A DNA stretch of 26,561 bases from a virus: positions 1-26,561 of the IMG/VR virus record IMGVR_UViG_3300025671_000426; one strand, 5' to 3'. The stretch's first letter is position 1, and each line of letters starts with the position of its first letter. Below are positions 1,420-1,584 of the stretch, piece after piece. The notes below the pieces were generated by a model. That model was not told where the DNA came from and did no database searches. It saw nothing but the letters and a program-made list of their open reading frames with translations. Made by a program: the position numbers and the translations under genes.

Positions 1420-1427
1420 TATAAATA
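1420..1427 (+). promoter_or_regulatory. TATAAATA promoter box pointing at a structured RNA
   Basis: The plus strand reads GTATAAATAC at 1419-1428, the same 10-mer as at the minus-strand boxes at 1168, 6420 and 24118. It has no -35 box. By analogy with T4 late promoters transcription would begin about 5-6 nt after the box, near 1433. No open reading frame starts soon downstream; the sequence is instead rich in stems. Confidence 0.5.
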
Positions 1428-1432
1428 CATTA

Positions 1433-1575
1433 CAATTTATCATGTGCCTAAGAGTGGTGTCCAAGCGGTCTCATTATTCCCCAAGATAGACGCTTAGAGC
1501 GAGTAAACCCAAGTCTTAGTCTGCCTAGCAGAGTATGTTGACCGTGTACGCACTAACGGTCATCCTTTTTGGGTA
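1433..1575 (+). ncRNA. Candidate structured non-coding RNA
   Basis: This stretch has no credible ORF but can fold compactly by eye. CTAA (1448-1451) pairs with TTAG (1494-1497) around a bulged stem GCGgTCT/AGACGC (1465-1471 with 1488-1493). ACCCAA (1507-1512) pairs with TTGGGT (1569-1574), enclosing hairpin TCTGC-CTA-GCAGA (1520-1532) and 7-bp hairpin TGACCGT/ACGGTCA (1539-1545 with 1556-1562). A TATAAATA box lies just upstream and a T-run (1566-1570) lies near the end. It has no tRNA cloverleaf and no family I can name. It could instead be a long leader for the 1660 gene. Confidence 0.4.
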
Positions 1576-1584
1576 ACAAACCTA

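Follow-up and report, generated by a model that had tools for sequence, protein, structure and literature searches.

A candidate T4-type late promoter with a putative structured leader in a small non-T4 phage, and a covarying leader family in its relatives

The window analysed here is an entire IMG/VR virus contig of 26,561 bases and stems from a small (~30 kb), uncultured, non-T4-like phage. This phage is probably of marine origin, because its portal resembles, at only 25-27% identity, the portals of several Pelagibacter phages. The evident genes all lie on the minus strand, with the sole exception of ORF 1660-1986, and include the terminase (24187-25629), portal (22015-23619), capsid (20101-21153), tape measure (15212-17464) and holin-like (2351-2647) genes as well as a DNA-primase-like fragment at the left end. 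Large gaps occur only at 1147-1659 and 1987-2350. The first of them (513 nt) separates the DNA-primase-like gene from the structural genes and contains the stretch 1420-1580, which an earlier note had described as structured, apparently non-coding RNA behind a phage-type promoter. Homologues sought via ORF 1660, ORF 907 and the primase gave either a near-identical phage (G030), whose noncoding block is identical to that of the window, or nothing; relatives of the holin were discarded because they belong to other phages. The window and G030 diverge abruptly to the left of window position 905 (G030 position 552), where G030 carries an extra 119-aa ORF. Since the relatives used throughout are contig fragments, the lack of a feature in them is little informative.

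The octamer TATAAATA, at 1420-1427 on the plus strand, is the late promoter octamer of T4 and KVP40, the corresponding sequence of S-PM2 being NATAAATA (PMC2984593), and it agrees with the T4/cyanophage late promoter consensus (N/T)ATAAATA. Its count in the window, six sites for 3.7 expected, is by itself unremarkable. Five of the six sites sit 12-80 nt 5' of a same-strand start codon, compared with an average of 0.45 for 55 permuted octamers, and in ten relatives chosen by their terminase 23 of 39 sites lie upstream of genes, compared with 2.15 for permutations. A wider set, chosen by the gene at 5588-6352, adds no evidence (29 of 67 sites) because it is less selective and one permutation scores higher. 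The sole exception in the window is the 1420 site itself, whose nearest gene lies 232 nt downstream with no gene start between. On the minus strand, a divergent copy at 1168-1175 is the putative late promoter of gene 907-1146.

Both the octamer and its placement shortly 5' of late structural genes are as in T4 and the cyanomyoviruses. It is likewise conserved at orthologous genes, being found before the portal and HNH genes of relatives whose terminases are 72-84% identical. When the whole gap was compared with 30 terminase-related contigs, the matches other than G030 were short and mostly surrounded the box. Unlike the T4 and cyanomyovirus cases, the phage group considered here is small (~30 kb) and non-T4. 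Neither gp55 nor gp33 was recognised in PHROGs and Pfam scans of the window, an incomplete contig, and of the G015 and G018 proteins. Placement and conservation together support the 1420 box as a late promoter, in line with the phage-type promoter of the earlier note, and by analogy transcription is predicted to start near 1433. Variants of the box (ATAAATA) at 9611-9617 and 22012-22018, both on the minus strand and 22 and 49 nt 5' of gene starts, are possible further late promoters.

Behind the box, 1433-1580 (plus strand) is an untranslated, moderately structured stretch that we propose to be a segment of a 5' leader. The absence of coding capacity had been claimed before and holds, as 1420-1580 contains no ORF of at least 30 codons (the longest have 27, 20 and 19). 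The same is true of its composition: G+C is 42% in 1420-1580 and 45% in 1430-1575, compared with 32% in the gap upstream, 24% downstream as far as ORF 1660 and 37% over the window. All pairings quoted in the note exist in the sequence. CTAA (1448-1451) can pair with TTAG at 1493-1496 or 1515-1518, GCGGTCT (1465-1471) is complementary to AGACGC (1488-1493), ACCCAAG (1507-1513) pairs with TTTTGGGT (1567-1574), TCTGC-CTA-GCAGA forms a hairpin at 1520-1532, and TGACCGT (1539-1545) and ACGGTCA (1556-1562) enclose a loop of 10 nt. The CTAA/TTAG and GCGgTCT/AGACGC pairs are missing from the minimum-energy fold. Folding of 1452-1506 (-10.3 kcal/mol, z -0.48) predicts on the plus strand a weak hairpin at 1452-1479, GAGUGGUG/CAUUAUUC, with three G-U pairs.

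The whole of 1420-1580 folds with -36 kcal/mol (z -1.09), and 24 of 200 shuffles fold equally well. Its best-supported structure is a predicted three-way junction at 1507-1574, in which ACCCAAG and UUUUGGGU close around the hairpins 1520-1532 and 1539-1562. Folded as 1506-1579, it reaches -23.2 kcal/mol on the plus strand (z -3.27, 2 of 200 shuffles) and a z of -0.29 on the minus strand. This sub-window had been picked after inspection, hence each shuffled region was given its own best window for comparison; the best local fold was then equalled by 9-12 of 200 shuffles (4.5-6%) on the plus strand and by about half of them on the minus strand. These statistics, which come from a single sequence and depend on the energy model, are suggestive of the junction, for which support is moderate and short of proof, and the fold of the window RNA is weakly supported. 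The earlier observation was thereby confirmed in part: its promoter by placement, its structured RNA for the junction and not for the region as a whole, with a fold only marginally beyond chance.

Over the noncoding block the sole homologue, G030, does not differ from the window, and no diverged homologue was found, so there is no covariation to draw on; 50 further relatives matched the gap only in short segments, mostly the promoter box. Rfam searches of the window RNA at gathering and permissive thresholds returned chance-level matches only, and ARAGORN called neither a tRNA nor a tmRNA, which agrees with the earlier statement that it matches no known RNA family. A tRNA-like reading of GTGTCCAAGCGGTCT was rejected, this 15-mer occurring in 38 contigs, in nearly all of them within unrelated sequence, and a 72% match of 1370-1419 in contig L014 falls in coding sequence.

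Upstream in the gap, 1276-1419 is far more strongly structured than 1420-1580. A strong hairpin or inverted repeat, AAGCAAATCTTTTGGGC/GCCCAAAATAGTTGCTT, folds on both strands at 1207-1252, and 1195-1275 was matched by 0 of 200 shuffles at a window of 75 nt. It is followed on the plus strand by a predicted three-way junction with an AUAGCAC/GUGCUAU closing stem (1282-1359) and by a 15-bp hairpin, GCUAGGCAUGCUUUA/UAAAGUAUGUCUAGC, at 1362-1408 (-20.5 kcal/mol on the plus strand, -14.8 on the minus). After scan correction, 1276-1419 was matched by 0-1 of 200 shuffles on the plus strand; it is stronger there because two G-U pairs keep the 15-bp hairpin whole on that strand only. This stretch may possibly be an RNA in its own right, with its end just ahead of the late promoter, and a weak sigma-70-like candidate read from the sequence at 1247-1275 (plus strand, TTGCTT-17-TAATAT, below the scan threshold) could be the start of an RNA covering 1282-1408.

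Downstream, a promoter scan placed a sigma-70 promoter (TTGACA-17-TAATAT, 10/12) for ORF 1660 at 1585-1613 on the plus strand. It is followed by the palindrome ACAGTC-AATTAA-GACTGT (1620-1637), which may be either operator-like or the 5' hairpin of a short transcript, and by a ribosome-binding site, AAAAGGA, at 1646-1652. ORF 1660-1986 itself, on the plus strand downstream of both promoters, encodes an orphan of 108 aa that, G030 apart, matched nothing in PHROGs, phages or viral contigs; a proposed homology to a plus-strand ORF of G018 found no BLAST support. A strong intrinsic terminator, AAAAGGACC-GAAA-GGTCCTTTTT (2113-2135, plus strand, -12.3 kcal/mol), is the likely end of the plus-strand transcript. 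A switch in which UCCUUUU (1563-1569) would pair with the ribosome-binding site at 1646-1652, 7 bp by eye, was dismissed at a pairing probability of ~0.02, and complementarity between the leader and the ribosome-binding site of ORF 1660 is no better than in shuffles.

A different leader was found in the relatives. In G018 and G026, both related by terminase, divergent late promoters stand ~240 bp apart in a block shared with contig L194. The interval holds an sRNA-like gene, after which come, on the same strand, a late promoter and then a structured leader. The conserved sRNA-like gene (~120 nt; L180 12478-12640, minus strand, with the same block in L179 and L194) has a sigma-70 -10 box and a perfect terminator and lies directly 5' of the late promoter. 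Compensatory change affects 2 of its 36 pairs among three sequences, the only copies found in IMG/VR. When a descriptor requiring two neighbouring hairpins whose loops are complementary was used for scanning, which also yields chance matches in coding sequence, the same leader, named R1, came to light in many relatives: L180:12364-12407 (minus strand), L179:3411-3454, L194:16995-17038, L227:13949-13992, L207:17072-17116, L253:13132-13178, L247:13630-13675, L215:14520-14566, L171:8213-8259 (minus strand), L224:19538-19584, L244:19259-19300 and L274:1501-1545, with further members in L219 and L236.

In nine aligned R1 cores, both sides have changed in 17 of 22 pairs, and the kissing helix is paired in all nine (UUAGCG/CGCUAA, UUGACG/CGUCAA, UUUGCG/CGCAAA). 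The covariation score is 0.59, compared with 0.23 for shuffles (0 of 500) and at most 0.20 for slid structures. The kissing-helix signal is biased upwards, since the sequences were selected partly by loop complementarity. Hairpin 1, too, was required as a stem, but further evidence comes from its many pair types and from the shared promoter and gene context. All 14 relatives have an (N)ATAAATA-like box, the leader, mostly within about 40-50 nt, and a start codon in this order. The box is TATAAATA, 41-73 nt before hairpin 1, at 8 of the 14 loci and a variant seen by eye at the other 6. In about half of the members the 5' side can pair over 10-14 nt with the next ribosome-binding site region (mean 8.4 versus 5.8 for shuffles). 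Three R1 loci gave nothing above threshold in Rfam. The alignments strongly support R1 as a new RNA family, a strongly covarying three-way junction with kissing loops.

The RNA of the window is the positional counterpart of the R1 leaders and no member of the family. Like it, they are three-way junctions behind a late promoter between the replication and structural modules, in several cases with a divergent late promoter adjoining, and the window does have a late promoter box upstream (1420-1427). The loops of the window junction, in contrast, are not complementary. The R1 descriptor, which asks for complementary loops of 6 nt or more, had no match on either strand of the window; the top score of the R1 covariance model, 8.5 bits (E 3.1), fell elsewhere in the window than the gap, and the model found nothing in 1147-1660. 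A minus-strand reading of 1506-1579, which has an R1-like hairpin order and the loops UUAG/CUAG, was dropped for its z of -0.29 and its lack of a covariance-model match. Pairing with the ribosome-binding site downstream, which is possible in about half of the R1 members, is not predicted for the window leader.

Purine riboswitches (RF00167) are three-way junctions in which a loop-loop contact connects two hairpins. The R1 leaders share this topology, a likeness at the level of overall arrangement; neither the R1 loci tested nor the window matched Rfam above threshold. The leader of T4 gene 32, a simple pseudoknot bound by the gene's own product (PMC3014915), is likewise a structured 5' leader of a phage mRNA as proposed here. 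Its pseudoknot-type loop interaction 5' of the start codon is shared by the R1 relatives and not by the window; its fold differs from both.

The most likely interpretation, to which we give about an even chance, is that a late transcript reading into ORF 1660-1986 begins with an untranslated 5' leader, of which 1420-1580 is the first part. RNA would start near 1433 from the late promoter at 1420, fold into the predicted junction 1507-1574, run on across the sigma-70 promoter region and ORF 1660-1986 and end at the terminator 2113-2135. Two messages would then carry ORF 1660, a short early one from the sigma-70 promoter and a long late one whose 5' end is structured; the most likely role of the leader is to tune how stable the late message is or how well it is translated, which the structured leaders of the relatives also appear to do. 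This interpretation is favoured by the placement and conservation of the promoter, by the noncoding nature and plus-strand-biased fold of 1420-1580, by a strong terminator that occurs only after ORF 1660, by the 14 relatives with box, covarying leader and start codon in order, and by the divergent late-promoter pairs enclosing structured RNA in G018, G026 and L194. Against it stand the whole-region fold, no better than that of shuffles, the lack of a diverged homologue, the separate sigma-70 promoter of ORF 1660, ribosome-binding site sequestration that is not predicted (P ~0.02), and the failure to recognise a gp55-like late sigma factor among the scanned proteins.

An independent, trans-acting late noncoding RNA of ~140 nt, from 1433 to ~1572, is less likely and in our view doubtful. 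The late promoter faces this stretch, the hairpin 1539-1562 followed by TCCTTTTT could end the transcript, and the relatives do have a true sRNA-like gene, running from a sigma-70 promoter to a perfect terminator, beside a late promoter. Against this, the only terminator candidate of the stretch (TGACCGT/ACGGTCA, then TCC and T5; 1539-1570, plus strand) is weak, with a 7-bp stem of -9.9 kcal/mol and 3 nt between stem and U-run, and a scan restricted to loops of 3-8 nt found no plus-strand terminator here. Such an RNA would also be without homologue or Rfam match. No positive evidence emerged for the sRNA, packaging RNA or decoy suggested in the earlier note, and wherever the structured RNA behind a late promoter could be read out in the relatives, it was the 5' leader of the downstream gene.

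It is similarly improbable that no functional RNA exists here and a real promoter is followed by an AT-rich spacer with mostly chance hairpins. The z of -1.09, the 4.5-6% of shuffles with an equally good local fold and the 80 relatives showing no conservation beyond the TATA box all fit such a spacer, whereas the locally raised G+C, the plus-strand bias of the fold, which arises through a G-U pair, and a closing stem around two perfect hairpins do not. A DNA element between the replication and morphogenesis modules, such as a replication origin or regulatory hub with the hairpins as DNA sites, would suit the 513-nt gap between the primase-like and structural genes, the two-strand hairpin 1207-1252 and the palindrome 1620-1637, but is very unlikely, since the plus strand gives the better folds for 1507-1574 and 1362-1408, a sign of RNA, and no iterons were found in the gap.

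If the promoter and the late-transcript leader are real, T4-type late-promoter transcription extends beyond the T4-like myoviruses, and in a phage of ~30 kb a late sigma factor is still to be discovered. A weakly supported fold in the window has in any case led to R1, a new family that occupies comparable sites in relatives. In G015, G018 and L194 the gene after the R1 leader encodes an orphan of ~550 aa and has at its start two perfect direct copies of a 20-nt sequence, 27 nt apart. These repeats are iteron-like, and the gene is possibly a replication initiator with an internal origin, in which case R1 leaders could control translation of what may be a replication gene. One may imagine a small non-T4 group with T4-type late promoters and structured leaders, in which R1 is a new cis-regulatory class, some members of which pair with the ribosome-binding site that serves a large gene with long direct repeats at its start, and in which ORF 1660 is controlled by the window RNA as a diverged version or functional equivalent; taken jointly, these propositions are unlikely to hold.

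Long perfect direct repeats of 15-20 nt, for instance AAAAAGTGAAGCGACTAATA twice, 27 nt apart, were seen at the start of the next gene after the R1 leader in L180 (12150-12360), L171, L194, L219, L274 and L236. Elsewhere in the window, repeated short coding segments of the AGANVSGEVAFAN type occur at 8301-8528, 5174-5262 and 4337-4382, inside and between the tail-fibre-like genes 2647-5610 and 7845-9080.
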